Shown in pieces: positions 2,022 through 59,086 of a stretch of DNA of 64,000 nucleotides. Below the pieces are notes generated by a model. That model was not told where the DNA came from. It was given only the letters and a program-made list of their open reading frames with translations, and ran no database searches. Origin of the DNA: Spirosoma aureum (GTDB taxonomy: Bacteria; Bacteroidota; Bacteroidia; Cytophagales; Spirosomataceae); contig NZ_CP050063.1 in assembly GCF_011604685.1 (NCBI RefSeq), forward strand, positions 3,122,501 to 3,186,500, written 5' to 3'. Positions within the stretch are counted from its first letter, which is position 1; each line of letters opens with the position of its first letter. The translations under genes were made by a program, and so were the position numbers.

Positions 2022-2187
2022 GCCGATCCACTATTTTCAGGGCGTTAATCAGCATCAGTAAAGAGACCAATTGCCAACAGTTGTTGCGACAGGTTGAAAG
2101 GATTGACGAAATCACTCCGTTCAGCAACAGTAGGCAATGCTTCTCAATTGCCTTTGGTAACCGTATTCTCTCGAAAAACGCTGATTT

Positions 2188-3090: not shown

Positions 3091-3189
3091 GATTTTCGCT
3101 TCGAGCCGTAGAGCCGTGCCACGGTTATTACTGATGAGCAAATAAACCACTGTCCGCCGTGCGGTGGCACGGCTCGAAGTCAAAGCCCT
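3089..3189. repeat. Dispersed palindromic repeat, copy 2
   Basis: Begins at the TAG of the DUF1080 gene. It shares its outer arms with copy 1 (GAGCCGTAGAG, GGCTCGAAG) and a 52-base core at 3116-3167 with copy 3 (26102-26153), with only a handful of differences. The arms pair imperfectly because the left arm carries about six extra bases. Confidence 0.75.
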
Positions 3190-3251
3190 GATAAGAAAAA
3201 GTAAGTGTACGGATTTAACCAGTTTCTCAATCTTCCTTTACGTCAAACCTG

Positions 3252-42463: not shown

Positions 42464-42473
42464 AGTGAAGAAT

Positions 42474-42540
42474 GAGGAATATAAGATGAAGAATGAAGAG
42501 TTATTATGGATTCTTCACGTTTCATTCCTCATTCTTCATT
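42474..42540. repeat. Heptad-repeat hairpin (GAAGAAT-type units)
   Basis: Several 7-base units related to GAAGAAT/GAGGAAT lie on one side (from about 42474) and their complements (ATTCTTC, ATTCCTC) on the other. The 3' end of rsmA (stop 42522-42524) is within it, so the last RsmA codons come from the repeat. Confidence 0.7.
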
Positions 42541-43346: not shown

Positions 43347-43419
43347 GATGCTGGAGGGTCAGATCGCAGGTTGCTGTCGCCGAAACGGAACGTCAACCCA
43401 TGCGATTAGTTTTCGACCA

Positions 43420-43427
43420 CAAAGGTA
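43420..43427 (-). promoter_or_regulatory. Possible -7 promoter element of rsmA
   Basis: CAAAGGTA on the plus strand reads TACCTTTG on the minus strand, a full match to TAnnTTTG, 74 bases before the rsmA start. No matching -33 element is evident. Confidence 0.4.
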
Positions 43428-43629
43428 CGGGGCATTGGGCGAATTATATGGACGGTTTTCGTTTATTGTGTGTAACCTGAGTCGTCTATTGTTTCGAATC
43501 AAAATTACGACACGGAATCAGTATCCGTAAAAGTCTAAAAATGAGCTGATAATCAATCTTTTAACTTGAGAAAATGGAGACCGTTCATCCACGTTGAATG
43601 CATGTCGGGATCTGTTTACATACACCTGT

Positions 43630-44637
43630 TTACTGTAGGGTACGCAACCGTTCTTTCACGGCGGTAAGCGCTTGTGGTGGGGTTTTGCCAAAATCGGTAT
43701 ACCCTTTTTCTTTGTAATCGATTACCCGATATATATCGAGGCCACTGGCCGTTTTATAGACCGGGCTGGCTCCTTTATCCAGCAGCAACTGGCAGATATC
43801 CCACAGATCGTTGTCGGCTGCATACATCAATGCTGAGGTAATAATAACGCGCTCATCGTATTGGGGCGGAATAGAGTTCGGGTCAGCCCCGTGCGCAAGC
43901 AATAGATTTACCTTTTGGGTTTTAAAGCCATCATCATTTCCCGAATAGAGGGCATTGAACAGGATTGGCCTCCCTGTAGGATATTCGGTTGCATTTGGAT
44001 TGGCTCCTTTCTTTAAAAACCACTCTAAAAGAGTTGGGGCGCCGTCGGTCACCAGAAAATGGGTTGGTGATCGAAGCTTATCCGCCGTTTCTACCGTGGC
44101 TCCGTGCGCCATGAGCAAATCGAGGCACTGAATGGCTTCGGGTGAAGGATTCTCTTTCGCGCGAAGGGTGGCAAAATCGAGTAATGTCGTATGATCCGTG
44201 CCGCTCTCGTTGATGGCAGGAATCGGCTGTTGTAGCCCAAGTTTTAGCTGAGCTACATTCCCGCTGGCTATCGCTGCGGCAAGCTGCCGTCTGACAGGGT
44301 CCTGAAAGTAGTAAGCGCCATTGGCTCGGTCGCTGAGTTCCTTGTCGTAATTTTTCTGGCGTCGATCCGCAATTATTGGTCCGAAAATCAGACTCAGCAG
44401 GTAGCCGACTATTGGAAATCCGCTAAGAATCAGGGTCAGTATTTTTGTAAAGGAATAGGGTAGCAGGTTTAAGCCAACAAGCACTACCAGAATGATCACA
44501 GCCAGAAATAAAATTCCGGCAGCCATTCCGCGACCAGCCGCATCTTGTCCAGAGCCTGCCGGTGTTAGAAACGCCCAGAGCAGCATAAACCCATAAAAGC
44601 TTAGAATGGCCCAGTTAATGAGTGTGATCGTTTTCAT
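43630..44637 (-). CDS. Membrane ankyrin-repeat protein
   Basis: A 335-residue protein starting at ATG 44635-44637. Three hydrophobic helices lie at about residues 5-25, 40-60 and 65-90. About four ankyrin repeats occupy residues 140-330, seen as TLLDFATLRA, LLMAHGATV, LEWFLKKGANPNATEY, LLLAHGADPNS and LLLDKGASPVYK. It probably presents a protein-binding scaffold on the cytoplasmic face. The partner is unknown, and no toxin motif is visible. Confidence 0.85.
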   Translation of the reverse strand: MKTITLINWAILSFYGFMLLWAFLTPAGSGQDAAGRGMAAGILFLAVIILVVLVGLNLLPYSFTKILTLILSGFPIVGYLLSLIFGPIIADRRQKNYDKELSDRANGAYYFQDPVRRQLAAAIASGNVAQLKLGLQQPIPAINESGTDHTTLLDFATLRAKENPSPEAIQCLDLLMAHGATVETADKLRSPTHFLVTDGAPTLLEWFLKKGANPNATEYPTGRPILFNALYSGNDDGFKTQKVNLLLAHGADPNSIPPQYDERVIITSALMYAADNDLWDICQLLLDKGASPVYKTASGLDIYRVIDYKEKGYTDFGKTPPQALTAVKERLRTLQ

Positions 44638-44720
44638 GCCGCTAACTAAGCTCTTATGTATGAGCATGTCTATCGGTAATCCATAACTGGTACTACTTAC
44701 TTAATAAGTAGCGGGTAAAA

Positions 44721-46547
44721 TCAAAAATCGATGTCGGTTAGCTCAAAATTCTGCTTGAGTGGAATAATACCTCCTTCTTCGGCACCGGGATGATAAATAA
44801 TGGTTTCGGGCTGAATACCCTTCTGCACATTGCCAATGTCACGCCTTCGGTTTCCATTGGCGTCGATGATCAGGCGGACCCGGTAGCGGCCTGGTTTAAG
44901 CCGGGGAAAACTGTAGTTTGTTGTTCCGTAAGAGGATCGGATAACCGTATATTTATCGTCAAGTAGCTCAACAATAAAGTTCTTATTGGCCCCGCCGACA
45001 GTTGCTGGGTTGATCCGACCAGCGATCAGGCCGTAGCTGTCTTCATCCGCAATTTTATACCGACCATTGTACCGGGCCAGCGTATCGCCCTGAACACTGA
45101 TAAATGCCCCTTTTAGTAGCCTGAAGAGCAGTGTGTCTTTAAGATTCGTTTTTCGTTTTATGACTAGTTGACTGAAACTATTACTCCAGGCCAGCTCTTC
45201 TGGTGTAAACTTAAAGGGTTTTGTACTGTCGGGGCCAATGACGATAAGATCGGTGCTGAAGCGGAGAATGGGTTTGGAGAATTTGATAGAGAAATCCAGA
45301 TTGTTATCAATCGGTTCACTGGCCGGTGGTGCCACCTGAACGGTCAGGGGTTTCCGGTCTTTTGCCCGCGATTTGATGGGCGAAAAATAAATGCGCTCCC
45401 TGAGTTCCGTAATATTGCCGACCGAATCCTGAGCCATAATGATCAAATTGATCGTATCGTTAGCCGCCCGGTTTGCTGGCCGAAAAAGCCGGATCATCTT
45501 GGGACTTTCTAAAAATGACACCAGCGTATCGGTCGACGGTACAAACGACATTGAGGTTGGAACAGCTGTTGCCGATGTTGCTGTTGAAGAGACCGCTGAG
45601 GTTGATACACCTGTCGTCGCTGTCGTGGAAGCGGCCGTCGTGGAAACAGCCGATGTGGAAGCAGCCGTCGTGGAAGCAGCCGTCGTGGAAGCCGCCGATG
45701 TAGATACGACTGTGGTGGAGACCATTTTACCAAAACGTAGTTTATAGCTGGCAATGCCGCTGCTAAGTTCCAGACCCAACGTTTCGTCGGTGCGCTCGCG
45801 TCGGCTGATTCGAGGCTTGGACGATCCCCGGAAAGCTACCATGTTTATATCGGTATAATTGCGGTTGAGATTCACAAGACTGTCGCGGAAGGCCACCCGT
45901 TCGCCCGGTGTGTTGTTAACCAGATTCAAATCCTTGTCGTCGAATCCATACACTTTATACTGGCCTGCTTTCACGTTTTCAATGCGATAAACGCCATTGC
46001 TATCGGTTCGGGCGTAATAGGCGGGACGCTTCCGGTTGATAGGGAGCGTATCGGTCGGTGCAAACAGGCCGATTACGAAGTTGAGGATAGGCAGACGGCT
46101 TTCGTCATCCAGAACAGTACCGCCCAAATAAAGTGAATCGATAACAGGGCCGGTGCTAAACACAATCTTGGCATCTTTAGCAATATTGCGCTCTGTAATA
46201 TCCTTTATGCCGTCAGAAAAGTTAATGGTATAGGTGGTATTCGGTTGCAGTGGCCGGTTAAAATTCAGCCGCAGGCCTTTTGGCAGGGCTTTTACAACAA
46301 ACGTATTGCTATCCTGGGGTGTAACGGTGACCTTTTGCTGAATATTTTCGACATTGACGTACTCGTCGAATTCCAGTTCAACTGTCTTGCCGGTATAGTT
46401 CAACTGTCGGGCCGTTGGCATGCTGCTCACCAGTTTGGGCGACAGGGTGTCTTTCTTGCCACCGGGCGGCTGAGCAACCTGGGCGCAATTTTGAAGCAGA
46501 ATGGGAAGTGACAGTAAAAAAAATACTATAAAATGGCGAAGCGTCAT
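44721..46547 (-). CDS. Lipoprotein with Big_5 Ig-like domain and Ser/Thr/Ala repeat insert
   Basis: A 608-residue outer lipoprotein: lipobox LLQNC (Cys21), then a Big_5 Ig-like domain (ARQLNYTGKTVELEFDEYVN). A carboxypeptidase-regulatory-like module follows (about 150-215; YRIENVKAGQYKVYGF). Residues about 275-330 are a low-complexity run of Ser, Thr, Ala and Val built on 5-residue units. Beta domains close the protein (FSIKFSKPILRF, GRYRVRLIIDANGNRRRD). The family is common in Bacteroidota as an Ig-like domain lipoprotein of unknown role. The repeat region is encoded by the minisatellite at 45622-45711. Confidence 0.85.
   Translation of the reverse strand: MTLRHFIVFFLLSLPILLQNCAQVAQPPGGKKDTLSPKLVSSMPTARQLNYTGKTVELEFDEYVNVENIQQKVTVTPQDSNTFVVKALPKGLRLNFNRPLQPNTTYTINFSDGIKDITERNIAKDAKIVFSTGPVIDSLYLGGTVLDDESRLPILNFVIGLFAPTDTLPINRKRPAYYARTDSNGVYRIENVKAGQYKVYGFDDKDLNLVNNTPGERVAFRDSLVNLNRNYTDINMVAFRGSSKPRISRRERTDETLGLELSSGIASYKLRFGKMVSTTVVSTSAASTTAASTTAASTSAVSTTAASTTATTGVSTSAVSSTATSATAVPTSMSFVPSTDTLVSFLESPKMIRLFRPANRAANDTINLIIMAQDSVGNITELRERIYFSPIKSRAKDRKPLTVQVAPPASEPIDNNLDFSIKFSKPILRFSTDLIVIGPDSTKPFKFTPEELAWSNSFSQLVIKRKTNLKDTLLFRLLKGAFISVQGDTLARYNGRYKIADEDSYGLIAGRINPATVGGANKNFIVELLDDKYTVIRSSYGTTNYSFPRLKPGRYRVRLIIDANGNRRRDIGNVQKGIQPETIIYHPGAEEGGIIPLKQNFELTDIDF
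45622..45711. repeat. 15-bp coding minisatellite
   Basis: About six units of a 15-base motif (GTCGTGGAAGCAGCC and variants) in tandem, in frame with the minus-strand lipoprotein, where each unit gives a five-residue Ala-Ala-Ser-Thr-Thr-like block. More diverged units extend upstream and downstream. Confidence 0.8.
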
Positions 46548-46860
46548 ACGTTAATAGGCAGTATACAGTTGGCAGTCGTCAACTGAGCGACTTATGGTTT
46601 ATGTATTTGCCTGTTCAGAGACTGTCAGGAATAATTTCTGACAACAATCAGCCACAAACTTAAAACCATAAACTAAGTATCCAGTGCAATCAGGCTACAA
46701 AGGTAAACGTCCGTTCATCGTTAAACTGTACCGACTGACATAAAATGGATGTCTGCTTCGTTACCTTAAGTAGAATTTTAAGAAAAATTAAAGGTCTCCG
46801 CCACAACGGAGGGTAGAGAACGGGGCAGTTTGGTACTTTTGCTCCTCACACATTCCCGTA
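46548..46860. other. Divergent regulatory region between the Big_5 lipoprotein and the two-NTPase cluster
   Basis: Contains a one-armed run of CAGTNNN heptads (about 46559-46586) and a small TCTCCG/CGGAGG-type hairpin near 46793-46812. A TAnnTTTG element lies for each direction: TACCTTTG on the minus strand (46698-46705) and TACTTTTG on the plus strand (46834-46841). No coding frame is convincing. Confidence 0.5.
46834..46841 (+). promoter_or_regulatory. Possible -7 promoter element of the two-NTPase cluster
   Basis: TACTTTTG followed by C fits the Bacteroidota TAnnTTTG consensus, 20 bases before the ATG of the first cluster gene. A -33 element is not clear. Confidence 0.45.
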
Positions 46861-48177
46861 ATGACGAAAAATTTATTCATGGTCCGCACACGAATCTGCC
46901 GGTTCCACCTATTTCTTGGCTTAGGGGTGGCTATCTTTTTACAGAGCTGTAATCTGGCTCCTAAAGAAGAGCAAAAGCCAACCGTTAAAGCTGATACAAT
47001 AAATCAGATCAATTTTTTTCTGGAAACATCGGCCAGCATGGGTGGTTACCTGAATGGGAGTACGGAATTTAAAAATATTGTTTCTGAATTCGCCAACAAG
47101 ATCAGCCAGATTGAGCCGGTGCGTAAACCCCTTGCCATTTATACCATCAGTGCCGAAGCACAGGCCTATCCTGGCGACGTGGATAAGTTTGTGACAAGCT
47201 TGGCCACGGTTCCGCTGGCCAACGCCCGTAGTTCGGAACTTCACACCATTTTTCGGCAAGTGGGCGAAAAGGCGCGCAACAACAGCGTGGCGCTTCTGGT
47301 ATCCGATTGTATTCTCTCGTTTCCGGACGGAGACATTAAGAAGAATCCGCAGATCAATGCGACCGATGCATCGAGTGTCCTGAAAAACGAGATCAACCGA
47401 CAGTTTGCTGCCTTGAGCAAAGACACTATCAATGCAACGGTTTATGCCTATTCGTCGGCTTTCAATGGCACATACTACGATTATCAGAACAAAAAGCAGA
47501 AACTCAATGGCGAATCGCGGCCATTTTATATCTGGGTTATCGGTAAACAACGCATCCTGAATCTGTTCAATCAGAAGTTACAGGCTGCCTTAACGACCAA
47601 ACCTGATAAGCAACTTGATTTTGGCGGGAGCGGCTCGACAGCGGGTTACAACCTGTTTTTTACCCTCAATCGGAAGGGTGAAAACTGGAATGCCGATGGG
47701 CAGCGCATCACGAACCTTAAAGGGGTTCGGGCCGATCAACCGGCTGAGTTTGCAATCGGTGTTAATCTGAGCGGATTGCCTGCCTACGCACAAACGGAAG
47801 CCTATCTGACCAAAAACCTGATCGTTTCGGCAGGAAATGCCGGGGTTAAATTGCTGAAAATTGAGCCAAAAGACGATGTGAAAGGTACCGAAAAGCTGAA
47901 AACCAATGAAGCCCGAATGCTGAGCGAGGCTACCCACGTGCTGACCTTTCGGGTAACACAGCTTTTTGAAAACGAAACGCCCGTTTCCATCAAATTACCT
48001 GTGCGCTACGATACCTGGTACCTAAATCAGTCCACAATGGACGACCGTACTTCGGCTGGCCGGGAGGGCAAAACCTTTGCACTTGAACACCTCATGAATG
48101 GTGTCCGCGATGCCTATGAAACAGGCTCCGGCGCTGATAAATCGTTTCTACAACTTACCATCACCCTCGAACAATAA
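46861..48177 (+). CDS. Lipoprotein with von Willebrand A-like motif (cluster gene 1)
   Basis: A 438-residue lipoprotein. The lipobox FLQSC (Cys30) is followed by a linker and then INFFLETSASMGGY (residues 50-63). This has the spacing of the vWA MIDAS motif DxSxS, with Glu55 in place of Asp. A later strand ALLVSDC (Asp149) is where the third MIDAS acidic residue lies in vWA folds. The C-terminal half is a beta-rich domain I do not recognise. It sits 9 bases before the small membrane protein gene and is probably the periplasm- or surface-facing part of the system. The vWA assignment is an inference from motif spacing. Confidence 0.7.
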   Translation: MTKNLFMVRTRICRFHLFLGLGVAIFLQSCNLAPKEEQKPTVKADTINQINFFLETSASMGGYLNGSTEFKNIVSEFANKISQIEPVRKPLAIYTISAEAQAYPGDVDKFVTSLATVPLANARSSELHTIFRQVGEKARNNSVALLVSDCILSFPDGDIKKNPQINATDASSVLKNEINRQFAALSKDTINATVYAYSSAFNGTYYDYQNKKQKLNGESRPFYIWVIGKQRILNLFNQKLQAALTTKPDKQLDFGGSGSTAGYNLFFTLNRKGENWNADGQRITNLKGVRADQPAEFAIGVNLSGLPAYAQTEAYLTKNLIVSAGNAGVKLLKIEPKDDVKGTEKLKTNEARMLSEATHVLTFRVTQLFENETPVSIKLPVRYDTWYLNQSTMDDRTSAGREGKTFALEHLMNGVRDAYETGSGADKSFLQLTITLEQ

Positions 48178-48186
48178 ACGGCACCC

Positions 48187-48561
48187 ATGTTCACTGCTTT
48201 GTATGAATTGCTGATTGGCAAAAACCCTGATCCTACGTACCGCAACACTGTTTTTACGCCCGTCGGCCTGCTAACGCTGGTGCTGATGCTGGGCCTGGCG
48301 GCTATTTTTTACCTGTTGCTGGGCCGCTGGAAAGCGATTTTTCACCGAACCAGTCACTGGGTGATTACGTTGGTTGTCGCCCTGATTATTGCCTTTTCGC
48401 TGGCTGTCAGCTACGCCAAAGACGCAACGGGTGAGCCCGAAGCCGACAGCTATATGCTTGGTTTTGGTGGCGTTAATTTAATTCTGGCCGGGCTATTGTT
48501 TTTTGGTTTTTCGCTCCTGTTCCGGCGTGGATCGAAGTTCGCCCGGTACACACCTTTTTAA
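48187..48561 (+). CDS. Small three-helix membrane protein (cluster gene 2)
   Basis: A 124-residue protein with three membrane helices at about residues 24-45, 57-77 and 92-112. Short, charged loops include a conserved-looking GRWKAIFHRTSHW turn and an acidic DATGEPEADS loop. The C-terminus (RRGSKFARYTPF) is basic and probably cytoplasmic. No family is recognised. Tight spacing after the vWA-like lipoprotein suggests it joins the envelope and cytoplasmic parts. Confidence 0.8.
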   Translation: MFTALYELLIGKNPDPTYRNTVFTPVGLLTLVLMLGLAAIFYLLLGRWKAIFHRTSHWVITLVVALIIAFSLAVSYAKDATGEPEADSYMLGFGGVNLILAGLLFFGFSLLFRRGSKFARYTPF

Positions 48562-48638
48562 ATTTCAGTTTTAAAAAAAGTCTTCCGTTTACTGGGTCGA
48601 AGCTCTGTTGCGCTACGCAGGAAACGGAAGACTGAAAT
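48561..48638. repeat. Inverted repeat between cluster genes 2 and 3
   Basis: AGTCTTCCGTTT (48579-48590) pairs with AAACGGAAGACT (48622-48633). The pairing would extend through ATTTCAG/CTGAAAT if about a dozen A/T-rich bases in the left arm are looped out. There is no clear U-run after the stem, so it may attenuate transcription or protect the transcript rather than terminate fully. Confidence 0.55.
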
Positions 48639-48647
48639 CGTTTAAGT

Positions 48648-50144
48648 ATGAAACTTTTCGTTTTTGCCATCGGTGGTACGGGTGCACGTGTGTTGCGCTC
48701 GCTAACGATGCTGCTGGCAGCTGGGGCTAAAGTGCCCGACAACCTGACCATTATTCCGATTCTGCTGGATATGGATATGCAGAACGGCGATACGGCTCGT
48801 GCTCTGAACGGCGTCGAACTGTACCGAACTATTCGCAATGCGGCTTATCCAAACGGGGCAGCACCGGCTGGTCAGAGCGATGCACCCCGACCATTCTTTG
48901 CTACCCCGATCCAGTCGCTGGGAACGCTCCAGAGCGAAACCACTCAGGAGCGGATCGGCGATTCATTTTTGCCCCAGCTGACCGAGCATCAGGGTACGTT
49001 CGAGGAGTTCCTGAATGTCAGTACCATGGATGATATTGACCGTGAACTGCTCAAAGTCCTCTACGATAATTCAGCAAAACCGACCAGTGCCGAGCTTAAA
49101 CTCGATCTCTCGGTTGGTTTTAAGGGGAATCCGAATATCGGCAGCGTAGTCTTCAACGCGCTGGAAGATTCGGCACTTTACAAATACTTCGTCGGAGCGT
49201 TTAACAACGAAACGGACCGGATTTTTATCATCAGTTCCATCTTTGGCGGAACCGGATCATCGGGTTTCCCGCAGTTGGTGAAACTGTTGCAGGAACCGAG
49301 CCAGAAAATGCCGATTCGCAACGCCCGGAAGGGTGCCGTTACGGTGATGCCCTATTTCGCACTGGAAGAAAACGGGCAAAGTGCCATCGACCAGAATCGC
49401 TTTAACTCCAAAACCAAAGCGGCACTGTCGTACTATCAGAACCAGATTCATCTGGATTCGCTGTATTACATTGGCGATAAACCCGGCGCTAAACTGTATG
49501 CAAACGTAGAGGGAGGTTCCAAACAGGCCAACAATGCGCATATCGTCGAATTGCTGGCGGCCGAAACCGTACTGGATTTTGCCAACCGGGGAGCCGGTGA
49601 GTTTGCCGGGGCGAAAACCTATTACGAATATGGCCTTCGGCGCGATGATCGCCAGTTAGACTTTGTTCATTTTGCCGATTCAACTTTCCGCAATGTGATG
49701 CAACCGCTAATTCGGTTTGCATACGCCAGCAAGTTCTACACAGAATACATACCGGCCAACCTGCGGGAATCGTTTGCCAAGAGTCTGGGGCTGCAACAGC
49801 AACTGGGTAGCAGTACCTATTTTGTGGCGCTGACGAAATTTATGGGTGAAGCTTTCCGCAAATGGCTCGCTGAAATGGGCGATAATGACCGGAAATTTGA
49901 CCCGTTCAACTTTCAGACAGATTTCAATGCGCTGGTTCGTGCCAAACAGATTGAACCCAAAACGTTCATGGGCTTTGGCGATAAAGGCATCAGTGAAAGC
50001 TTCCTGCTTAACGAAGCGGGCGACGCCGAACCGAAACTACTCGCGCAATACCCTCAGCCCGAAACGCGCCTGATGCAAATGCTGATGGTCGTAGCGGACA
50101 AGTGCATGCAAAAACTTGGCGACCTCAACCGGCAACTTGTTTAA
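48648..50144 (+). CDS. Tubulin/FtsZ-superfamily-like GTPase (cluster gene 3)
   Basis: A 498-residue protein without membrane segments. It opens MKLFVFAIGGTGARVLRSL, matching the first nucleotide loop of the tubulin superfamily (Gly9-Gly-Thr-Gly12). FIISSIFGGTGSSGFPQL, with GGTGSSG near residues 197-203, matches the T4 phosphate loop (tubulin signature GGGTGSG). A helix rich in Asn/Ala (QANNAHIVELLAAETVLDFA) is placed like helix H7. It is not FtsZ: it is longer and the rest diverges. It resembles the Tubulin_2/FtsZ-like families described in bacterial membrane-remodelling gene clusters that also carry vWA proteins. I infer GTP binding and perhaps filament formation. Confidence 0.72.
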   Translation: MKLFVFAIGGTGARVLRSLTMLLAAGAKVPDNLTIIPILLDMDMQNGDTARALNGVELYRTIRNAAYPNGAAPAGQSDAPRPFFATPIQSLGTLQSETTQERIGDSFLPQLTEHQGTFEEFLNVSTMDDIDRELLKVLYDNSAKPTSAELKLDLSVGFKGNPNIGSVVFNALEDSALYKYFVGAFNNETDRIFIISSIFGGTGSSGFPQLVKLLQEPSQKMPIRNARKGAVTVMPYFALEENGQSAIDQNRFNSKTKAALSYYQNQIHLDSLYYIGDKPGAKLYANVEGGSKQANNAHIVELLAAETVLDFANRGAGEFAGAKTYYEYGLRRDDRQLDFVHFADSTFRNVMQPLIRFAYASKFYTEYIPANLRESFAKSLGLQQQLGSSTYFVALTKFMGEAFRKWLAEMGDNDRKFDPFNFQTDFNALVRAKQIEPKTFMGFGDKGISESFLLNEAGDAEPKLLAQYPQPETRLMQMLMVVADKCMQKLGDLNRQLV

Positions 50145-50248
50145 ATGAGTTTGCAGGGTATCGTTTTGGTAGATTACCTGCTGAGATTATACGCTCGCAC
50201 GTTACTACCGAAACATATACCTGAAAACTGAAAACGGAAAATTTCAGT

Positions 50249-53200
50249 ATGCCCCATATCCTTCGCATTGACAACGACCCGAACGTGGTCGAACAGAATC
50301 ACCTCGGCTGGACAGGCGGAACCGTCGGGCTGGTTGGTAATCGTATTGAACACATTCCCGACACGCTGCTGAATCAGGCTGGTCTGGCGGCCAAAGCGGG
50401 TACGTCGATTCCGTCGCCGTTTGCGCGGTTGTATTTATTCGACGCGGCTTTCAGGCTGGTCATGAACGACCTCCGACCGGCTCAGCCGACCATGTATCAC
50501 GTACTGGTGTCACACTGCCTCGATCTGCTCGAATTGTTGTTTCAGGCAGGTGGTAGCCCCGATCTGACCTACCGTGTCTGGAGCCGGGCCGATCGTTTGA
50601 GCGCCCTGAACCAGAAAGCTCCATTGCCGAATGCGCCGAATCGTCGGCATCCGCATCGGGTGCTGGCCAAAGCGCTTGAGCTGGATATGCGCCACGATCT
50701 GGCCAACCTGCAAACATTCACCCTGATTTATTACAAAGGGGCACTATTGGGCGGTACCTCACCACTAACGCTGGTATTTACGTCGCCCAACTGGGAGCAG
50801 GAGCGTCAGAACAAATTTCTGGACCCGCCCAAGAGCAGCACGGGCCGGGTATTGTTCCAGCAGGAATATGTACCGCTCGAAAGCCGCGACCGGACGTTCG
50901 TGACGTATTTAAGCCGGTTATTTGAGCAATACAAAAGCCTGTTGCCCGAAAACAGCGGTCTGACCAAGTTTCTGGACAAACTCTTCCGCGATAACCCGTA
51001 TCCACTGCCCGTAGATGGCGGCAAAACGCTGAATGATTTCAATCCGATCAGTACGAATATCGAAGGATTCAGCACGCTTCAGGTTGTAACGGGATTGCCG
51101 CTATACAGCGTCCGTGCCGACGATGTGTTGCGTGAAGTGGAAGGCAACAGTGATTTTGTGATGTTGCCAACAGTTGGTTATTATAAAGAAGAAACCAACA
51201 AAAACGGCGTCAAAACAAACGTGCGGCCACCACTGGCGCTGGCTTCGCGCATGGATGTGCGTGGTCGCTACGTGAAAAACACCGATTGGGATTCGCGGAC
51301 GGTCATTCCATCCTCATTGCTCAACGATTTGGGAGCGGGTGGGCTACTGGCCGACCGTCGGCTACCGGGTGTTGACAATGTGCAGTACCCATTTGTTTCG
51401 ACCGACGATTTTCTGGAGGATTTCCTGATTCGGATGCCGTTCAAGATCAATAATGAACGGTTTTTTACGGGAACTGTCAATCGCGCCGATTGCGATTTCC
51501 TGCTGCCGATCCGGAAAGAATACTTTAATTTTTTCACGCTCGAAGACCTTCGCAATTACCTGGTGCTGGACATCAGCGACCTGCGGGTAACGGCTACGCT
51601 CAAAGTTCCTGTACGGGGACAGGGTGTGCGCTTTGTGGAGTTCCGGAAAACCTATGAACTGAACGAGCCCGAAAAAGTGCTTGATTTGCCGGTCGGTATG
51701 GGTTTCTTTCCATTTTACCGACTCACAATTCCCGACCAGCAGGCCCTGAACAAATATACAGTTCTACTGGCCGATGGCACAACATCGCAGGCGACCCAGG
51801 CCAGTTTCTACCGTTTCCCGGATGTCGTCAATCGACACGCGCTCACGAGCGGAAAACCACAGCCCCGAAGCCCAAAAGTGGGCGAACGGCCTGCCTCGTA
51901 CTACTACAAAGTCAACGAAGCCTTCGATCTGGTCGAGATTCAATTGGCGCATAATGACATCCCGTACCGGGGAATTGTGATGCCGGAATTTACGACGGTT
52001 TCCAATCGCGGTTACGAAGAGTTTACGTTTGCTGTCGACTTCGGAACGTCGAATACACACGTGGCCTACCTTGTCAAAGATCAGGGTGGAGCCAAGCCCG
52101 ATCCTGAGCCATTGACCGTTACGGATGAAGATCTTCAGATGGTGCTGCTGAACAAGCCGTATTCGGGGCCGGGTATTAGTCGTGACTATGATCGATATAG
52201 TGTCAAAAGTAGTTTTGGCGCGTTCGAACAGCTGGAACCGCTGGTTCGGCGGGAGTTTGTTCCCCCACTCATTGGCCGTAATCCACGGCTTGGAACGCCG
52301 TTTGCTTTCCCGCTACGAACAACCATCTACGAGCGCGAGGGCCTGACCCAGGGTGGCGATTACCTGTTTACGAAACTGAATCTTGGTTTTAACATTGACC
52401 TCGAGCAGGTTACCGTTGGCGATAACAATCGTTATGTATCGACTCTGAAATGGCTGTTCGAAAACAAACCGAACGACACGCTGAATGACCTGCGCGTACG
52501 GGCGTTTTTTGAGACGCTTTTGCTTCTGATTCGCCATAAAGTGGTTCAGAACAAAGGCGACGTTGCGCTAACGAAGATTGTCTGGCTGGCACCGTCGAGC
52601 ATGACCCGGCGCACCCGAAATCGCCTGACTGCCGAGTGGAACAAAGCCATGCAGGAAGTGTTCGGTACTACAGCTTATTTCCAGGATGAACCGATTCTGG
52701 AATCACTGGCGCCGTATTTTTATCTTCAGCGTCAGGGTGTTCTTCCGACAGCCAATGCCGTAAACGTCGATATCGGGGGAGGTACGTCGGACCTGATGTT
52801 TTTTGCGCAGGGGCAACGGCATTACTTCAATACGTCGTTCCGGTTTGCGGCCAACGACATCTGGGGCGGTGGTCTCGATGAAACCGGGGCGCCTTCGGGC
52901 CGGATGGATAACGGATTTGTGTCGAATTTCCTGACATACCGCAGCAATAACCCATCGAGCCAGAAAACGGGTGCCGACCAAACGCTGGATGCCTTTCTGG
53001 ACCCCAAACGCCGGATGTCGCCCGAAGATGTGGTCAGTCTATTGTTTAAATACGATGACCACTTCCAGTTTACGAAGGCAATTCAGAATCAGCAGCCTGC
53101 TTTGTTGATTGTGCTGTATTTGCACTATGCAGCCATTATTTATCACCTGGTTCAACTGATTGAATCGCAGGAAAAACAGGAAGGTGGTACTGCGCTTGAG

Positions 53201-53809
53201 CTACCGCGTTTTCTGACGTTTACGGGCCGGGGAAGCCAGTACCTGAACCTGCTTGGAACGCGGGCCGACCTGGTCGATTACACGAAGCGGTTGTTTGCGG
53301 CTTATACCACGAAATCAGTACCGGCCAACTTCCAGATTCTGTTGACCGACAATCCGAAGGAAACGACGGCTAATGGCGCTGTGCTTTATCAGACTGCTAC
53401 GGATCGGGATCAATACCGGGGTAATCAGACTACAGCTTATTGGGGGAATGAACCGACGCATCCGGTAACGTTTACGTATAATGAAACGACCGTTGATACC
53501 GTTGGGCACGAGAATGATTTCCATGATTCGGTGTTACGCAACGTGCGTGATTTTCTGGAGAAAACACTAAAAAATAACTCCGTATCGGCGTTTCTGGGTG
53601 ATTTTGGTATTCGCCGGACACAGGATTATTATGACTTCCTGGTTGGATCAGATGTAACCCGAAGCAGCGTGTTGCATGATAGTTACATGCTGGCTAAACT
53701 GCCTCTTGAGCGCGACGCTGATGCGCGGCTGGCGGAGACGTTCTTTTTCCTGCCACTTAAAAACGCGCTCTACGAACTGTCGAAATACATTGCCAAAAAC
53801 CAGTCGTAA
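50249..53809 (+). CDS. Large protein with C-terminal Hsp70/actin-type ATPase domain (cluster gene 4)
   Basis: A 1186-residue soluble protein. Residues 1-585 show no motif I know; they open LGWTGGTVGLVGNRIEHIP and are beta-rich further on. From about 590 comes an actin/Hsp70 fold: phosphate-1 FAVDFGTSNTHVAYL (Asp597, Gly599), phosphate-2 VNVDIGGGTSDL (Asp841 to Asp848) and adenosine motif FTGRGSQYL (residues 991-999). The large insertion between phosphate-1 and phosphate-2 and the fused N-terminal half resemble very large Hsp70-like proteins such as SrfB, but I cannot confirm kinship. It lies 104 bases after the tubulin-like gene. Confidence 0.78.
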   Translation: MPHILRIDNDPNVVEQNHLGWTGGTVGLVGNRIEHIPDTLLNQAGLAAKAGTSIPSPFARLYLFDAAFRLVMNDLRPAQPTMYHVLVSHCLDLLELLFQAGGSPDLTYRVWSRADRLSALNQKAPLPNAPNRRHPHRVLAKALELDMRHDLANLQTFTLIYYKGALLGGTSPLTLVFTSPNWEQERQNKFLDPPKSSTGRVLFQQEYVPLESRDRTFVTYLSRLFEQYKSLLPENSGLTKFLDKLFRDNPYPLPVDGGKTLNDFNPISTNIEGFSTLQVVTGLPLYSVRADDVLREVEGNSDFVMLPTVGYYKEETNKNGVKTNVRPPLALASRMDVRGRYVKNTDWDSRTVIPSSLLNDLGAGGLLADRRLPGVDNVQYPFVSTDDFLEDFLIRMPFKINNERFFTGTVNRADCDFLLPIRKEYFNFFTLEDLRNYLVLDISDLRVTATLKVPVRGQGVRFVEFRKTYELNEPEKVLDLPVGMGFFPFYRLTIPDQQALNKYTVLLADGTTSQATQASFYRFPDVVNRHALTSGKPQPRSPKVGERPASYYYKVNEAFDLVEIQLAHNDIPYRGIVMPEFTTVSNRGYEEFTFAVDFGTSNTHVAYLVKDQGGAKPDPEPLTVTDEDLQMVLLNKPYSGPGISRDYDRYSVKSSFGAFEQLEPLVRREFVPPLIGRNPRLGTPFAFPLRTTIYEREGLTQGGDYLFTKLNLGFNIDLEQVTVGDNNRYVSTLKWLFENKPNDTLNDLRVRAFFETLLLLIRHKVVQNKGDVALTKIVWLAPSSMTRRTRNRLTAEWNKAMQEVFGTTAYFQDEPILESLAPYFYLQRQGVLPTANAVNVDIGGGTSDLMFFAQGQRHYFNTSFRFAANDIWGGGLDETGAPSGRMDNGFVSNFLTYRSNNPSSQKTGADQTLDAFLDPKRRMSPEDVVSLLFKYDDHFQFTKAIQNQQPALLIVLYLHYAAIIYHLVQLIESQEKQEGGTALELPRFLTFTGRGSQYLNLLGTRADLVDYTKRLFAAYTTKSVPANFQILLTDNPKETTANGAVLYQTATDRDQYRGNQTTAYWGNEPTHPVTFTYNETTVDTVGHENDFHDSVLRNVRDFLEKTLKNNSVSAFLGDFGIRRTQDYYDFLVGSDVTRSSVLHDSYMLAKLPLERDADARLAETFFFLPLKNALYELSKYIAKNQS

Positions 53810-53813
53810 CGGA

Positions 53814-54632
53814 ATGATGATGCAACGATTCAGAAAAGGCTGGCTGTTGGTAATTGGGTTGACAGTCAGTCTGGTAGCGCAGGCTCAGGATGGTGAAACG
53901 GCGTCAAAACCATCTTTTTATACGTACCTGGGGCTGATTCTTGCCCTGCTTGCCCTCATTGGTCTTGTTCTACTCTGGTGGCAGAATCGACTGGCCTGGG
54001 ACAAGATCAACTCGGAAAGACGATCCGCTACCGGTAATTCCGATGGAGTTCGGGAGTTAAGCGGGCGGGTGATGTCGCTGGAGCGCGATAACAAAGCGCT
54101 GATTGTTAAGATGAAAGCCCTGGACGAGCAGGTAATACAACTACGGCAACTTGTTCGCAGTGATAACCGGCAAGCGGCCACGGCTGTTCCGTCAACACCA
54201 GCTGTTGAACCACGGCAAGCTCCTGCGCAACAACCGGTTCGGCCCAGTGAACCTGTCCAAAAGTCGGCAGCCGTATCAGCGCAGTCGCAGCGGCCAGCAC
54301 CGGTTATTACACCCCCGGTTAAATTGTATGCCCGCACTGCCGATGTTCCTGGTGGGTTCAGCGTAAGCAGCCTGGTGGAAACGCCCAATCGCCCAATGGT
54401 ATTTGTGATAACGCCAACCGGGCCAACTCAGGCCACCTTCCGCGTAACCGACGATCCTGAAGCCCAGCGATTGGCTCTGAGCGATCCGTATTCGTACCTG
54501 AGCGATGCCTGTAATTATCAGTCCCGGCCCGAGATAAATAGCCGGATTCACATGATTTCCGACGGAAAACTGCAATTACAGGGTGAAAAGTGGCATATTG
54601 TTGAAAAAGCGGAAATTAGTTTCTATGTCTAA
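53814..54632 (+). CDS. Membrane coiled-coil protein (cluster gene 5)
   Basis: A 272-residue protein. Three ATG codons overlap at 53814, 53817 and 53820; I take the first, 4 bases after the previous stop, because it keeps the signal-like N-terminus (LLVIGLTVSLVAQAQ). A transmembrane helix follows at 37-56, then a probable coiled coil (about 75-115; LSGRVMSLERDNKALIVKMKALDEQV). A Pro/Gln/Ala-rich linker spans about 125-185. The compact C-terminal domain starts VKLYARTADVPGGF and ends EKAEISFYV. The topology suggests a bridge between envelope layers. No family is recognised. Confidence 0.8.
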   Translation: MMMQRFRKGWLLVIGLTVSLVAQAQDGETASKPSFYTYLGLILALLALIGLVLLWWQNRLAWDKINSERRSATGNSDGVRELSGRVMSLERDNKALIVKMKALDEQVIQLRQLVRSDNRQAATAVPSTPAVEPRQAPAQQPVRPSEPVQKSAAVSAQSQRPAPVITPPVKLYARTADVPGGFSVSSLVETPNRPMVFVITPTGPTQATFRVTDDPEAQRLALSDPYSYLSDACNYQSRPEINSRIHMISDGKLQLQGEKWHIVEKAEISFYV

Positions 54633-54648
54633 TGTGTTAGTGTTTGGT

Positions 54649-54699
54649 AAGTAAGGTAACTGAGGAATTGGGTTTCACTCGTTGCCATTTACCTTACTT
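54649..54699. repeat. Inverted repeat between cluster genes 5 and 6
   Basis: AAGTAAGGTAA (54649-54659) pairs with TTACCTTACTT (54689-54699), and a nearby AATTGGG/CCCAATT pair offers an alternative stem. It is a simple-sequence hairpin of the same general kind as the other gaps. Confidence 0.5.
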
Positions 54700-54735
54700 A
54701 CCCAATTACCTTTGCTACGTATTTAGGCAGTCAAG

Positions 54736-56301
54736 ATGACGCTTACCGAACTAAAAGAACGAATTAAGGAAGAAGTTGTCCTGCATGAGGGTGACTTGAA
54801 AGAATGGCAGTGGCGCAGAAATGGTCTGCTAACCGAAGCCGAGCAGGATGGTATTGCCTCCGCAGAATTCATGCGGCTGGTTAATGATGTGAGTTATCAG
54901 CTTGGAGGGCTGTTCCCTCGGATCAATGCGCTGAAGTCCACGGCCGAGACCTACGCCCGAGCCGATAAAAAACAGCTTCTGCCACTTCACCTCGACGAAC
55001 TAGTTGCTGAAGCCGAGCGGTTGACATTATCCAGAAACTTCGTAACAAAACGCTGGCTTCCGGCAATTCTGGCAACTATTCCAGATCCGCCTAAATCAGA
55101 AACGGTTGCCGTACCGGTTCCGCCACCGGCGCCCGTTACTCCGCCCCCTGTTGTTCCCGTTGTTCCAACAAGCCTGAGCCGGGACGAGGTGCGCCGAAAG
55201 GTTGCTGCCAAACTAGACGACTATAAATCACAACGGACCATTCCTGCCTGGGTATTGCGCGATTTGCTTTATGCGATCAATGGTGATGAATCGATCGTAA
55301 CGGAGGAGATATTCTCGTATCTCGTCAGTAATTTTTTCAAAGCCGCCCGCGAACCACAGGGAAACACGCTGCGGGAACGATTGGTGTCAGCCGATTGGGA
55401 AAACGTTCTATTTAAAGTCAATCCGGAACCTGCCCCCGTTGTAACACCCGAGCCTTACCGTCCGGAGCCATCGCGCATTCCCGAACCTCAGCCAATTGTA
55501 CGCTCGTTTACAGCCCAGCCAGCCCGTGTCCGTAAGGGCGAAGCCGTGACGCTGGCCTGGGAGGTAGAGAATCTGCTGGCGGTTACGATCGATGATCTCG
55601 GAGCCGGGTTGTCTCCTCAGAACAGGGGTTGGGTAAAGCCAGTGAAAACCACGGATTATACCCTGTTCGATGTCAATAATAATCCATTGAGTACCGTTCG
55701 GGTGGAGGTCATACGGCCTGATCGAAGCGGAGTTTATGGGGTCATGTTCGCGCTGGCGTTGCTGGCTCTGATCTATTGGTTCATTAAAAATACGAATTCA
55801 GAGAAAACGGAACCAGTCGAAAAGCCGCGAACGGAAAAGACCTCCGAACGGACTGGAAAAACGCCTGTGCATTTGGCCGGGAAACGGCGAAAAAAAACGG
55901 CCAGAACGACTAAGCCGGAGTCAGAAAAACCAACAGAAACCATTGCCAGGGCTGAGCCCGCACCGAAAACCAAGCCTGAAAAACAGGAAACGCCGGTTCA
56001 GACTATGTCCAAGCCGATCAGAAGTGAATCATCCGAAACACGGTCATCGTCGCAAACCGCCAAGCCACAGTATTCGGAACCCAATGATAAGCCTTACGAC
56101 AAAGTAGACAATCGCACCGATGAGCAGGGCTGGCGGATGGCTCGAAAAGGGAAACGCTGGGGCTATGTCAATGAATTCGACGAATGGGTCATTGAACCCC
56201 AGTTTGAGGCAACAACCCCATTTCGGGGAAATGTAGCGTCTGTTTTCTTCAACGGACAGCTTATGAAAATAAATCGGGCAGGCGAACAGGTGAAGAATTA
56301 G
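54736..56301 (+). CDS. Membrane protein with Ig-like and WG-like parts (cluster gene 6)
   Basis: A 521-residue protein. The N-terminal helical region (1-115) is charged. A Pro/Val linker (120-150) leads to a second helical region and a Pro/Glu-rich stretch. An Ig-like beta segment spans about 253-330 (SFTAQPARVRKGEAVTLAWEV, TDYTLFDVNNNPLSTVRVEV). One transmembrane helix lies at about 332-351, then a Lys/Glu/Pro/Thr-rich linker. The final 60 residues contain KGKRWGYVNEFDEWVIEPQFE, the WG-repeat pattern. It is convergent with the envelope operon across a heptad-repeat hairpin. Confidence 0.8.
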   Translation: MTLTELKERIKEEVVLHEGDLKEWQWRRNGLLTEAEQDGIASAEFMRLVNDVSYQLGGLFPRINALKSTAETYARADKKQLLPLHLDELVAEAERLTLSRNFVTKRWLPAILATIPDPPKSETVAVPVPPPAPVTPPPVVPVVPTSLSRDEVRRKVAAKLDDYKSQRTIPAWVLRDLLYAINGDESIVTEEIFSYLVSNFFKAAREPQGNTLRERLVSADWENVLFKVNPEPAPVVTPEPYRPEPSRIPEPQPIVRSFTAQPARVRKGEAVTLAWEVENLLAVTIDDLGAGLSPQNRGWVKPVKTTDYTLFDVNNNPLSTVRVEVIRPDRSGVYGVMFALALLALIYWFIKNTNSEKTEPVEKPRTEKTSERTGKTPVHLAGKRRKKTARTTKPESEKPTETIARAEPAPKTKPEKQETPVQTMSKPIRSESSETRSSSQTAKPQYSEPNDKPYDKVDNRTDEQGWRMARKGKRWGYVNEFDEWVIEPQFEATTPFRGNVASVFFNGQLMKINRAGEQVKN

Positions 56302-56393
56302 TCTTCAGCAGGCAGTGAGCAGTTTGCAGTCTTCAGTTGGCAGAGGCCTTATCGTGAACTACCTACTGAAGACTGCCCACCGCCTACTGCCCA
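56302..56393. repeat. Heptad-repeat hairpin (CAGTNNN units)
   Basis: Left arm units after the stop at 56301 include CAGTGAG, CAGTTTG, CAGTCTT and CAGTTGG. The right arm, read on the minus strand, includes CAGTAGG, CGGTGGG and CAGTCTT. It separates two convergent genes and supplies the CAG-TAG end (Gln-stop) of the minus-strand gene at 56384. Confidence 0.75.
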
Positions 56394-58096
56394 GGTGCAA
56401 CCTCTACATTCAGGTTCTGAAATTTAACCGTTTTGGAAGCCGTTATAACGCCAATTTTATTCCCGCTGAACTTTCTGAAAACGTGCGGGCTATCCTCCAC
56501 CTCTTCTCCATTGATGTAAAAATGAAGTTGGTTCAACTCTTTTTTTACCATTAAAGTATTCCGTTCCCGATTCACATTTACCCGGGGGGGCGTGGGTTTT
56601 CCCGGCATGTAGTTCGCAAATGTGCCACCGTTGATAAGCGACTTTATGGATACCTGATTCGTTCCCATCAGCCGGAATTGGCAAAAATTGTTGACATCTT
56701 TTACACCGAGCAGTAAGCCACCATCAGGCTGGACACCCGGAGGTACGATCATATCGATCGTTACAGTAAACGATTCCGCTTTATTTAAATCAATCGATGG
56801 CGGTAGGCTGATGTAGCTGCGAGCGGGATTTACGGTCGATGCAGACGTTTTATGGATGTAATAATTGCCAAGACTTATTTCAAGCTCATACCCATTCTTC
56901 TGGCCCACCAACCAGCGGTTCTGATTTTTGGTGAATGTCTCGCTGAATGTGTTTGGAGCGGAATTGATAGGTTTAGGTGCTTCACTAACGGGAGTTTCCA
57001 CGACCGGCGCTGGTTTTTTTTCCGGGATCGGTGTACTTACGGTGGGCGTAGGCGTCTCAACCGTAGTTGTGTAAGCCGTGGGCAGGTCGGGCCCGGATGC
57101 TCCTAACGTGACGCTTAATTTCTGAAAAGCAGTCCAATAGGCAGAGGAGATCATACCTACATTATTACCTGCCAGCATTTTGAAGCGATAGGGGCTGTCA
57201 CGAATTTCCCGTTCATTCACGTAGAAGTGGAGCGCATACCCCTTCCGTCGGATAGTAAGTCGATTTCGGTTTCGATCGACGGGTACGCCTGGCTTGAAAA
57301 AATCACCGGGCATATAGTCGGTAAATGTTTCGCCATTGGACACCCGGATAATCGAAACTTCCCCTTTGTTATTTAAGGTAAAGGCGCTGAAATTCAACGA
57401 ATCTTTTACGCCAAACAGCAGCCCGCCTGTAGGTACTCGCCCTGAATCGGCTAATACATCGATCTTGATGGTGAACAGGTCGGCAGCGTTCAGATTAATG
57501 TCTGTTGGCAGGGGTACATAGCTGAAGGCTACCTGCTGCGTGTTGACATTCCGTTTGCGGATACTGTAGCGGCCCATCCCGATCTGGTAATGATAATCAC
57601 CTTTAATGCCCGCTTTCCAGCCATTTCGGTTCGTGGCAAAATCGCCGGTGAAAGCGGGCCGGAAATCGGGAGACGTAGTAGTTGAAGGGGCCGTTCGGTT
57701 CGGTCTTGACACCGGTATGTCCGGAACTGATGCCTGCTCAGCTTGAACCGTAGTTGGCTGCGTAACCGGTGGGTCAACGCGGCTTGGTGTCGACACCTCA
57801 GGCCGGGGTGCATCGGTACGAACTACGTTTGGCTGAGCAATATCAGGCTGCGTTCGGCTCGGTTGGGTAGGTGCAGGCCGATCAACCGGTGTAGTAGCTG
57901 CTGGCTGGGACATCGTAACCGGTGTATTAACAGGCTGGTTTGCTACCGATGGGGAAGTGCGGGAAGTAGACTTAAAGGTAATCTTCTGCCAGTCGCTGGT
58001 TGCCGAATAAATGAACGGTTTCGAACGTCGGGGTGCTTGCCCAAAGCTGGCTGTGCTTAGCAAAACAAGAGCGGTAAGGAACGAAAACAGTCTCAT
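56384..58096 (-). CDS. Secreted protein with two concanavalin-like repeats
   Basis: A 570-residue exported protein (signal peptide to about residue 19). A long Pro/Thr/Gln/Val-rich linker covers 50-145. Then come two homologous domains, at about 148-333 and 385-569. Each runs GWKAG or RWLVG, a glycine-Tyr strand, LPPSIDLN or LPTDINLN, LLFGVKDSLNF or LLLGVKDVNNF, GETFTDYMPG or GGTFANYMPG, and LHFYVNEREIRDSP or LHFYINGEEVEDSP. This is an internal duplication of a DUF1080/LamG-like beta-sandwich. No catalytic residue is evident. It is third in a minus-strand operon. Its final codon and stop come from the heptad repeat. Confidence 0.82.
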   Translation of the reverse strand: MRLFSFLTALVLLSTASFGQAPRRSKPFIYSATSDWQKITFKSTSRTSPSVANQPVNTPVTMSQPAATTPVDRPAPTQPSRTQPDIAQPNVVRTDAPRPEVSTPSRVDPPVTQPTTVQAEQASVPDIPVSRPNRTAPSTTTSPDFRPAFTGDFATNRNGWKAGIKGDYHYQIGMGRYSIRKRNVNTQQVAFSYVPLPTDINLNAADLFTIKIDVLADSGRVPTGGLLFGVKDSLNFSAFTLNNKGEVSIIRVSNGETFTDYMPGDFFKPGVPVDRNRNRLTIRRKGYALHFYVNEREIRDSPYRFKMLAGNNVGMISSAYWTAFQKLSVTLGASGPDLPTAYTTTVETPTPTVSTPIPEKKPAPVVETPVSEAPKPINSAPNTFSETFTKNQNRWLVGQKNGYELEISLGNYYIHKTSASTVNPARSYISLPPSIDLNKAESFTVTIDMIVPPGVQPDGGLLLGVKDVNNFCQFRLMGTNQVSIKSLINGGTFANYMPGKPTPPRVNVNRERNTLMVKKELNQLHFYINGEEVEDSPHVFRKFSGNKIGVITASKTVKFQNLNVEVAPGQ

Positions 58097-58108
58097 GATC
58101 GTGTTTGC

Positions 58109-59086
58109 TTAGAATGAATACCGGACAACGGCCGTTGGCTGGCCCGCCTGTAGTCCAGGATAAACCGTAAAGGATTGAATTCGACGCGCTTCTTTGTTCA
58201 ACTGGTTGTTCCGTAATCCTTTCAAAAATGTCAGAACAACATCGGCGGCCGCCACAACAAGGGCTCCCCGCGTTGCCAGAAAATAGCGATGGTGATGATC
58301 GTTGGCAGTAGCATAATACGGTTCGGCGGCTGCTGTATTTTTCTGTTGCTCATAGATGGCAAAATCATCCATGGACTTCTCCCGCTCTAAGATCCCATAA
58401 GCTACTAACCCATAACATCCAATGGTTAGTAACGGTCGCAGCCCAATTTTAGGTTTGGGCCATTGAACAAAAATATTGCCAATGCCAGGGGCCACTGCCG
58501 ACAGCAAAGCCCAGGCAGGACCAGCATATCGTTCTTTTCGGAAGCGTGCCGTATCAGGTTGGGATATGGGCTCGTTAAGCATACCAGAGGGTTTTGCTGT
58601 CGATTGGGGTTCAGGTGTAGAGGTTGGTCGCTCGGCCCTGGGTGGGTCGGCTGTAACGACAGGATTCGTCCGGGCTGGTTTCTCCGGAATAACTTCCGGC
58701 TTTGGTGTCATTGAAGCCGGATTTGTGGCTAGTTGGGATGCATCTGGAATTATTCCGGTTTTAACCCGGATAATTGCCTGGATTTCTTCATTCAGCGAGT
58801 AGCCATTGGCCAGCGCATTCCAGACGATTCGCCGGTCGGTGCCAGCGGTGATACGCATGCCAATATCTCCCCGAACGAACTGAGGCAGGATATGTAACGT
58901 CCCCCGCAGTCGGCTCCGGATATCAAAATAAACGGAGTCGCCAGGGCGGGCTGTAATCAGATCGTAGCGAATTTCCAGTTGCGATGAGTCGACAACGCGC
59001 ATCCTGATGTTGCGTATGCGCTCCTGAGCCAGACTGGCAGAGATGGCTAACACACTAAATAGAGTGATAAACAACAGACGCATCAT
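58109..59086 (-). CDS. Envelope membrane protein with N-terminal beta domain
   Basis: A 325-residue protein. Signal peptide to about residue 20, a beta domain at 20-112 (RNIRMRVVDSSQLEIRYDLI, GDSVYFDIRS, DRRIVWNALANG), a Pro/Thr-rich linker at 115-185, then two hydrophobic segments (about 195-230, GPAWALLSAVAPGIGN; 268-292). The basic/aromatic C-terminus ends VVRYSF, an outer-membrane-like last residue. Function is unknown. It lies between the PKD lipoprotein (2-base gap) and the duplicated beta-sandwich protein (12-base gap). Confidence 0.8.
   Translation of the reverse strand: MMRLLFITLFSVLAISASLAQERIRNIRMRVVDSSQLEIRYDLITARPGDSVYFDIRSRLRGTLHILPQFVRGDIGMRITAGTDRRIVWNALANGYSLNEEIQAIIRVKTGIIPDASQLATNPASMTPKPEVIPEKPARTNPVVTADPPRAERPTSTPEPQSTAKPSGMLNEPISQPDTARFRKERYAGPAWALLSAVAPGIGNIFVQWPKPKIGLRPLLTIGCYGLVAYGILEREKSMDDFAIYEQQKNTAAAEPYYATANDHHHRYFLATRGALVVAAADVVLTFLKGLRNNQLNKEARRIQSFTVYPGLQAGQPTAVVRYSF

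Follow-up and report, generated by a model that had tools for sequence, protein, structure and literature searches.

A tubulin-like and an actin/Hsp70-like protein encoded together with envelope proteins in Spirosoma aureum: a candidate nucleotide-driven envelope machine

What might a bacterium do with a tubulin-like and an actin-like protein encoded side by side among envelope proteins? The question is raised by 64,000 nucleotides of the Spirosoma aureum chromosome (contig NZ_CP050063.1, positions 3,122,501 to 3,186,500; the window), in which open reading frame (ORF) calling placed six consecutive genes, g1 to g6, on the + strand at 46861-56301. The window lies at 3.12 Mb within an 8.9-Mb single-contig genome. 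Tubulin-type and actin-type proteins usually form separate cytoskeletons, FtsZ-FtsA being the classic bacterial pair. We propose, with a probability of about one half, that the cluster encodes an envelope-anchored, nucleotide-driven machine in which the tubulin-like g3 and the actin-like g4 work as one unit, held by g2 and g5 and coupled to the lipoprotein g1. Motifs, gene order, fusions and distribution are the observed basis of this proposal; the folds are predictions. Because g3 and g4 have been fused into one gene in two lineages, they likely function as a single unit.

The original prediction, made from the letters of the window, was confirmed as an observation, and its interpretation was supported overall: a tubulin fold is predicted for g3 (48648-50144), and the cluster genes adjoin one another in related genomes. 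The fusions, a modular downstream slot, the core distribution and the presence of two versions in one slot are new beyond it. The features are as follows (lengths in amino acids [aa]).

46861..48177, +: g1, vWA-like lipoprotein, 438 aa (ORF, motifs)
48187..48561, +: g2, small membrane protein, 124 aa, three hydrophobic helices
48648..50144, +: g3, tubulin-like protein, 498 aa (Pfam Tubulin_2 match below cut-off, predicted fold)
48672..48683, +: first glycine loop of g3, GGTG, residues 9-12 (motif)
49245..49265, +: tubulin signature loop of g3, GGTGSSG, residues 200-206 (motif, glycine conservation)
50249..53809, +: g4, 1186 aa, C-terminal half of actin/Hsp70 type (ORF, predicted fold)
52013..53731, +: actin/Hsp70-type ATPase region of g4, residues 589-1161
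53814..54632, +: g5, 272 aa counted from the likely start (ORF, hydropathy)
54736..56301, +: g6, accessory membrane protein, 521 aa, WG repeat at 475-507

The gaps between successive genes are 9, 86, 104, 4 and 103 bases, with the start of g5 set at 53814.

Properties of the encoded proteins

Both phosphate loops of the tubulin superfamily that had been claimed for g3 were found, the second at residues 200-206, where G200, G201, G203 and G206 were invariant across 74 aligned sequences. Structure prediction and fold search gave a tubulin fold for the GTPase region. The Pfam Tubulin_2 profile matched g3 at E 3.1e-5 with 23.8 bits, below the cut-off of 27; most close relatives of g3 are annotated PF13809 by a newer Pfam version. 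No GTPase family besides Tubulin/Tubulin_2 appeared in a Pfam scan of the six proteins, and phage records gave no match to g3. Five Tubulin_2 proteins of the phylum sample scored above the cut-off; their frames are 997-1215 aa long, and no g4-profile partner was found at their loci, two of which lie on short contigs. A separate tubulin-family gene, which scores above the Pfam cut-off and is likely FtsZ, lies at 8.70 Mb of the window's genome. Because of this other FtsZ-type gene a role of the cluster in cell division is unlikely, and a constant envelope function, in organisation or remodelling, is the likely role.

The Hsp70/actin assignment made for the 1186-aa g4 stands for residues ~589-1161, where an actin/Hsp70 fold is predicted and where the phosphate and adenosine motifs of that ATPase superfamily are present and conserved among relatives; the N-terminal residues 1-588 lie outside this region. 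Pfam HSP70 did not match g4, a PDB sequence search using g4 gave no match, and up to E 1 the Pfam results for g4 did not include SrfB, one of the families suggested for comparison. A protein 95% identical to g4 is recorded under the name Spirosoma oryzicola. The best structural matches include DnaK and BiP, and two DnaK chains align with g4 up to about residue 502 of DnaK. Such matches would suit a chaperone-type system for envelope stress or quality control, with g4 as an Hsp70-like unfoldase and g3 as a scaffold, as would a distant cluster (L174) in which the pair is accompanied by three TerD genes (E 4e-51 to 1e-70) and an OmpA gene; we hold this explanation to be very unlikely. In L174 (genome G240) the TerD genes and the OmpA-family gene, at 2175-4063 and 990-2156, follow a distant g1-g2-g3-g4-like cluster, and in L175 too an OmpA gene follows the pair.

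The phylum sample also gave 25 weak matches to the g4 profile (E 4e-5 to 1e-3), which were not counted: the one inspected (L057) is FtsA adjoining FtsZ, and an FtsZ-type frame was present in 21 of the 22 fetched loci (L056-L077).

The remaining core proteins are a predicted lipoprotein and predicted membrane proteins. The lipoprotein part of the vWA-like lipoprotein claim for g1 was borne out by a lipobox, LQSC, at residues 27-30; the vWA part lacked both a DxSxS-type metal-ion-dependent adhesion site (MIDAS) and a vWA profile match. In g1 an ExSxS motif occupies residues 55-59, and Cys30, Ser57 and Asp149 were invariant among 21 aligned relatives. The three hydrophobic helices expected of g2 were found, and its relatives have three helices in 84 of 92 cases and two in the other 8. 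g5 consists of a signal-like segment, a membrane helix, a linker rich in proline and glutamine (P/Q) and a conserved C-terminal domain.

Fusion and conserved order of the core genes

Tubulin-like and Hsp70-like genes are fused in two families. Fusion A (P0198, P0205 and P0207; 1611-1641 aa) is an end-to-end join: in P0198 the tubulin profile spans 2-484 and the g4 profile 491-1626. The same form is present in genomic DNA of a Cytophagales metagenome-assembled genome (MAG; L116) as a single open frame of 1630 codons. Fusion B is a distant second family, for which a 1681-aa query from L176 gave 166 matches, 120 of them listed. Among the listed proteins both motif sets, defined by permissive patterns, occur in 115 of 120, compared with 0 of 2400 shuffles; at E < 1e-3 the tubulin model matches 83, the g4 model 31 and both models 26. 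In a tree with 28 of 46 inner branches starred, fusion A is nested among the split forms and fusion B falls outside them; the branch separating fusion B is unstarred (support 91/80), and the tree carries long-branch warnings, above all for canonical FtsZl1 with fusion B. The simplest reading of these sequences would be two separate fusion events, to which later re-splitting is a possible alternative. In L211 the pair is encoded as two overlapping frames.

Gene order was compared at 97 loci, made up of the best 80 of 471 confirmed g4 relatives and 17 regions that we chose from g3 matches in related genomes; since 80 were selected by a g4 match, the count is conditional on g4. The order g1-g2-g3-g4-g5 was found at 89 of the 97, the exceptions being L033, L042, L043, L114, L116, L118, L119 and L135. 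The six genes of the proposed unit are adjacent and on one strand as described, and the conserved core is g1-g5; g6 is one of several downstream alternatives. Among 296 phylum genomes, 9 have g3; 8 of these have a separate, clear g4, in each case adjoining g3, and in the ninth g3 is fused to an Hsp70-like half. One locus (L033) has g1-g3 only, and in its genome (G040) g4, g5 and a MotA-like gene stand together ~0.24 Mb from g1-g3, with a MotB-like gene at 1.71 Mb; the cluster broke into pieces while g1-g5 and the stator-like genes all stayed in the genome. Contig ends interrupt the clusters of L118, L119 and L135. L043 (G015) keeps the g1-g5 order in split frames, with g1, g3 and g4 each in two or three frames, through sequencing errors or decay.

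g1-g5 also stand in order in a Prevotella oral-taxon record. Among plasmid records g4 had a single match, in NC_022111.1, a Prevotella record of 1.77 Mb that is filed as a plasmid but whose size suggests that it may be a second chromosome; g1-g5 lie there, unannotated, at 617389-636715 (L186). A record named Flavobacterium (L092, NZ_JAPQNS010000015.1) has a cluster with g4 59% identical, as in Rudanella and Larkinella, and may bear a wrong name or a transferred cluster.

The downstream slot and the distribution of the core

The slot downstream of g5 is modular. At 48 of the 97 loci g5 is followed by family A600, MotA/TolQ/ExbB-like proteins with a long coiled tail. Pfam MotA_ExbB matched 8 of 14 scanned members (best E 5.3e-5; the two scores viewed lie below the cut-off), and ZorA profiles matched 2 of 4 tested (best E 1.2e-5); a PDB search with the MotA-like profile A5 reached ZorA at E 0.8 only. 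The MotB/OmpA-like family B268 occurs at 44 loci, at 43 of them together with A600, and all A600 and B268 genes are on the same strand as the core. B268 was matched by Pfam OmpA in 7 of 14 (best E 1.3e-6) and by the ZorB1 profile in 4 of 4 tested (best E 1.8e-12). In the PDB it matched MotB-related 8vvn (E 2.8e-6) and chain 8qyd_F (E 3.7e-4), whose entry group includes the ZorAB entry 8qyh; 43 of the 44 B268 members retain the membrane Asp motif. Families C580 and D288 fill the slot instead at 12 loci, the N-terminal domain of C580 being common to g6 (hhalign probability 83 over 107 columns). g6 itself is found at 24 loci, some with an aspartyl-protease-like gene, and none of these accessory genes was found at 9 of the 97. 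The second Spirosoma version has, between g5 and g6, a gene for an aspartyl-protease-like lipoprotein (Pfam E 1.1e-17), at L037:14953-15525 and in seven similar loci.

The fusion B loci (n = 8) have the order three-helix protein, tubulin-Hsp70, vWA-like, ZorA-like, ZorB-like. The vWA-like gene is present in 8 of 8, the ZorA-like in 7 and the ZorB-like in 6, the missing ones being where contigs end. The ZorA-like label is given by helix layout, coiled tail and position, with neither a Pfam MotA nor an A5 match, and the ZorB-like label by the membrane motif (6 of 6) and weak A6 matches in two. A stator-like pair thus likely occurs in two distant lineages. Both stator profiles also match a second cluster in a genome of the window's genus (G023).

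g3 was found in 40 of 59 related genomes, these including all 36 of the window's genus, its own counted. The window's version (at least 71% identity) is present in 7 of the 36; the others match at 36-41%. In genus g13, probably Hymenobacter, g4 occurs in 61 of 61 genomes and the ZorB-like gene in 59, the two without it having weak, divergent g4 matches only (E 3e-10 and 3e-8). Of these 59 genomes, 55 have the two genes on one contig and strand, with the ZorB-like gene lying 2.6-4.6 kb downstream, and 4 have them on different contigs. The fusion is distributed patchily in family f55 (8 of 16). As a core component of two genera, the system differs from typical patchy defence.

One chromosomal slot in the window's genus is occupied by either of two deeply diverged versions of g1-g5. 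At nine loci the flanking proteins, where found, are 66-92% identical to those of the window, whereas g1, g3, g4 and g5 are 21-37% identical. In the tree the second Spirosoma version groups with Prevotella (starred), apart from the window's version. We read this pattern as replacement of g1-g5 in place. Comparison of window positions 41111-59086 with L037-L047 gave conserved flanks, with g1-g5 of the other deep lineage in most genomes of the genus and g6 intermediate (50-58% over about half its length). Upstream of the cluster, a gene on the opposite strand (44721-46547) encodes a protein with a low-complexity stretch in its middle, where the residues S, T, A and V abound. A promoter and terminator scan gave no clear excess over shuffles.

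Exchange of highly divergent versions at one slot, and patchiness in f55, would be in keeping with a Zorya-type anti-phage or conflict system, in which the membrane part senses infection and tubulin/Hsp70 is the effector or a containing polymer. The ZorA and ZorB1 profile matches given above favour it, as do two weak PADLOC matches, ZorF3 with g5 (E 0.02) and PD-T4-6 with a low-complexity part of g6 (E 6e-4), and tubulin and HSP70 genes occur in GTPase-centred predicted conflict systems according to the available text of PMC7159879. Opposed to these are the core status in two genera (36/36 and 61/61), the syntenic place in Spirosoma, the lack of any other PADLOC match for g1-g6 up to E 1, and the fact that no ZorC, ZorD or ZorE was seen, although neighbours were not systematically searched for them. 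We consider a Zorya-type role rather unlikely.

Proposed mechanism and relation to known systems

In the envelope machine that we prefer, g3 would bind GTP and assemble at the membrane, where the ATP cycle of g4 would recruit or control it much as FtsA does for FtsZ. g2 and g5 would hold the g3-g4 unit at the inner membrane, g5 with its membrane helix, P/Q linker and C-terminal domain tethering g3/g4 as ZipA tethers FtsZ. g1, predicted to face the opposite side of the membrane, may sense or grip something in the envelope. Because the core is co-encoded with the stator-like pair in many relatives, the machine may transmit force, or a mechanical signal, among the cytoplasm, the membrane and the cell wall. 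The window has g6 in the stator slot, where it likely acts as an anchor or output. More tentatively, this could be a new class of envelope motor, in which an ion-driven MotAB/ZorAB-type stator is coupled through the inner membrane to a cytoplasmic tubulin-actin nucleoside triphosphatase (NTPase), a single polypeptide in two lineages, and to a vWA-like lipoprotein; in the window's version a WG-repeat membrane protein would have replaced the stator. If so, it would be the first machine joining tubulin-type GTPase, actin-type ATPase and ion-driven stator as one unit.

Several observations weigh against the proposed machine. Foldseek alone gave a single match with E < 0.001 for g3. No position in g3 could be assigned to the T7 catalytic acid of FtsZ (family-versus-FtsZ profile alignment probability 2.4); at the candidate residue, D344, 43 of 74 aligned sequences have D. 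The g1 family nearly always has the ExSxS-type motif, with Glu for Asp (D in 1 of 95 relatives); Pfam vWA did not match g1, and a PDB search with its profile returned nothing meaningful. The topology of g5 and g6 is hydropathy-based only. Neither stator-like profile matched in the window's genome, L042 has a lone tubulin-like gene, and a MAG (L114) has g4-g5 with no g1-g3 within 10 kb.

No report of this gene combination was found in the open-access literature searched, most subscription journals lying outside it. The claim that no system known by name resembles the cluster was nevertheless too strong, since relatives in kind are described in PMC2875224 and PMC9880817, as far as their available text goes. 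In the former, Makarova and Koonin (2010) describe FtsZ-like-1 (FtsZl1) genes with vWA, GTPase, kinase and OmpA genes and predict membrane remodelling, a proposal that the original prediction also mentioned for clusters of FtsZ-like and vWA proteins. The likeness lies in a divergent tubulin with a GGTGSSG-type loop, a vWA-type gene, membrane proteins and, in some, OmpA. Most FtsZl1 proteins are long and have a coiled coil, whereas g3, at 498 aa, lacks the long layout and C-terminal coiled coil; the available description names no actin/Hsp70 partner, fusion or MotA/ZorA-like pair, and the window's cluster has no P-loop GTPase or kinase gene (PMC2875224). The 2010 systems are still without a mechanism in the literature found.

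The second relative, Synechocystis sll0445-sll0447, is a cluster of Tubulin_2, actin-like (FtsA-domain) and coiled-coil (DivIC-domain) genes; phototaxis is impaired in all three mutants, and the products are reported in complexes with pilus assembly proteins (PMC9880817, available text). This would suit a machine that positions or assembles an apparatus of surface motility or adhesion (pilus, gliding, secretion), its NTPases placing that apparatus in the membrane. The same mutants also show photosystem effects, however; the likeness to g3-g5 is one of described domains; a vWA lipoprotein or fusion is unmentioned in the description, by which alone the two were compared (PMC9880817); and the annotated neighbours at the inspected loci included no recognisable pilus or gliding gene. 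We judge this role unlikely.

In the parts of PMC7159879 (Kaur et al. 2020) available, tubulin and HSP70 genes appear in GTPase-centred conflict systems as non-overlapping themes. These GAP1-N2 systems resemble the cluster in joining tubulin and vWA genes, with HSP70 in another theme and membrane association; they differ in being defined by GAP1 and TRAFAC GTPases, neither of which is among the Pfam matches of g1-g6, and in occurring mainly in other phyla. CoCoNuT systems contain Hsp70-like and vWA parts (PMC11090510), and stator diversity is treated without tubulin in PMC12505986, both as far as the available text goes.

Zorya, by its PADLOC models, is approached through the downstream pair of many relatives, which resembles ZorA/ZorB. 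That pair is absent from the window's cluster, with none matched in its genome; a tubulin/Hsp70 core replaces ZorC/D/E, and the distribution in two genera is that of a core gene set. FtsZ-FtsA-ZipA, the working analogy for g3, g4 and g5, combines a GTPase of tubulin type with an ATPase of actin type and a membrane protein that has a P/Q linker and C-terminal domain; the cluster departs from it in the 1186-aa g4 with its 588-aa N-terminal half, in lying away from the division cluster and in sharing its genome with another FtsZ-type gene. As the fusions are kept with envelope genes, often with a stator-like pair, direct coupling of the tubulin and actin superfamilies becomes testable outside cell division; Spirosoma and a second genus, in both of which a version is core, provide ordinary hosts in which the genes could be deleted.

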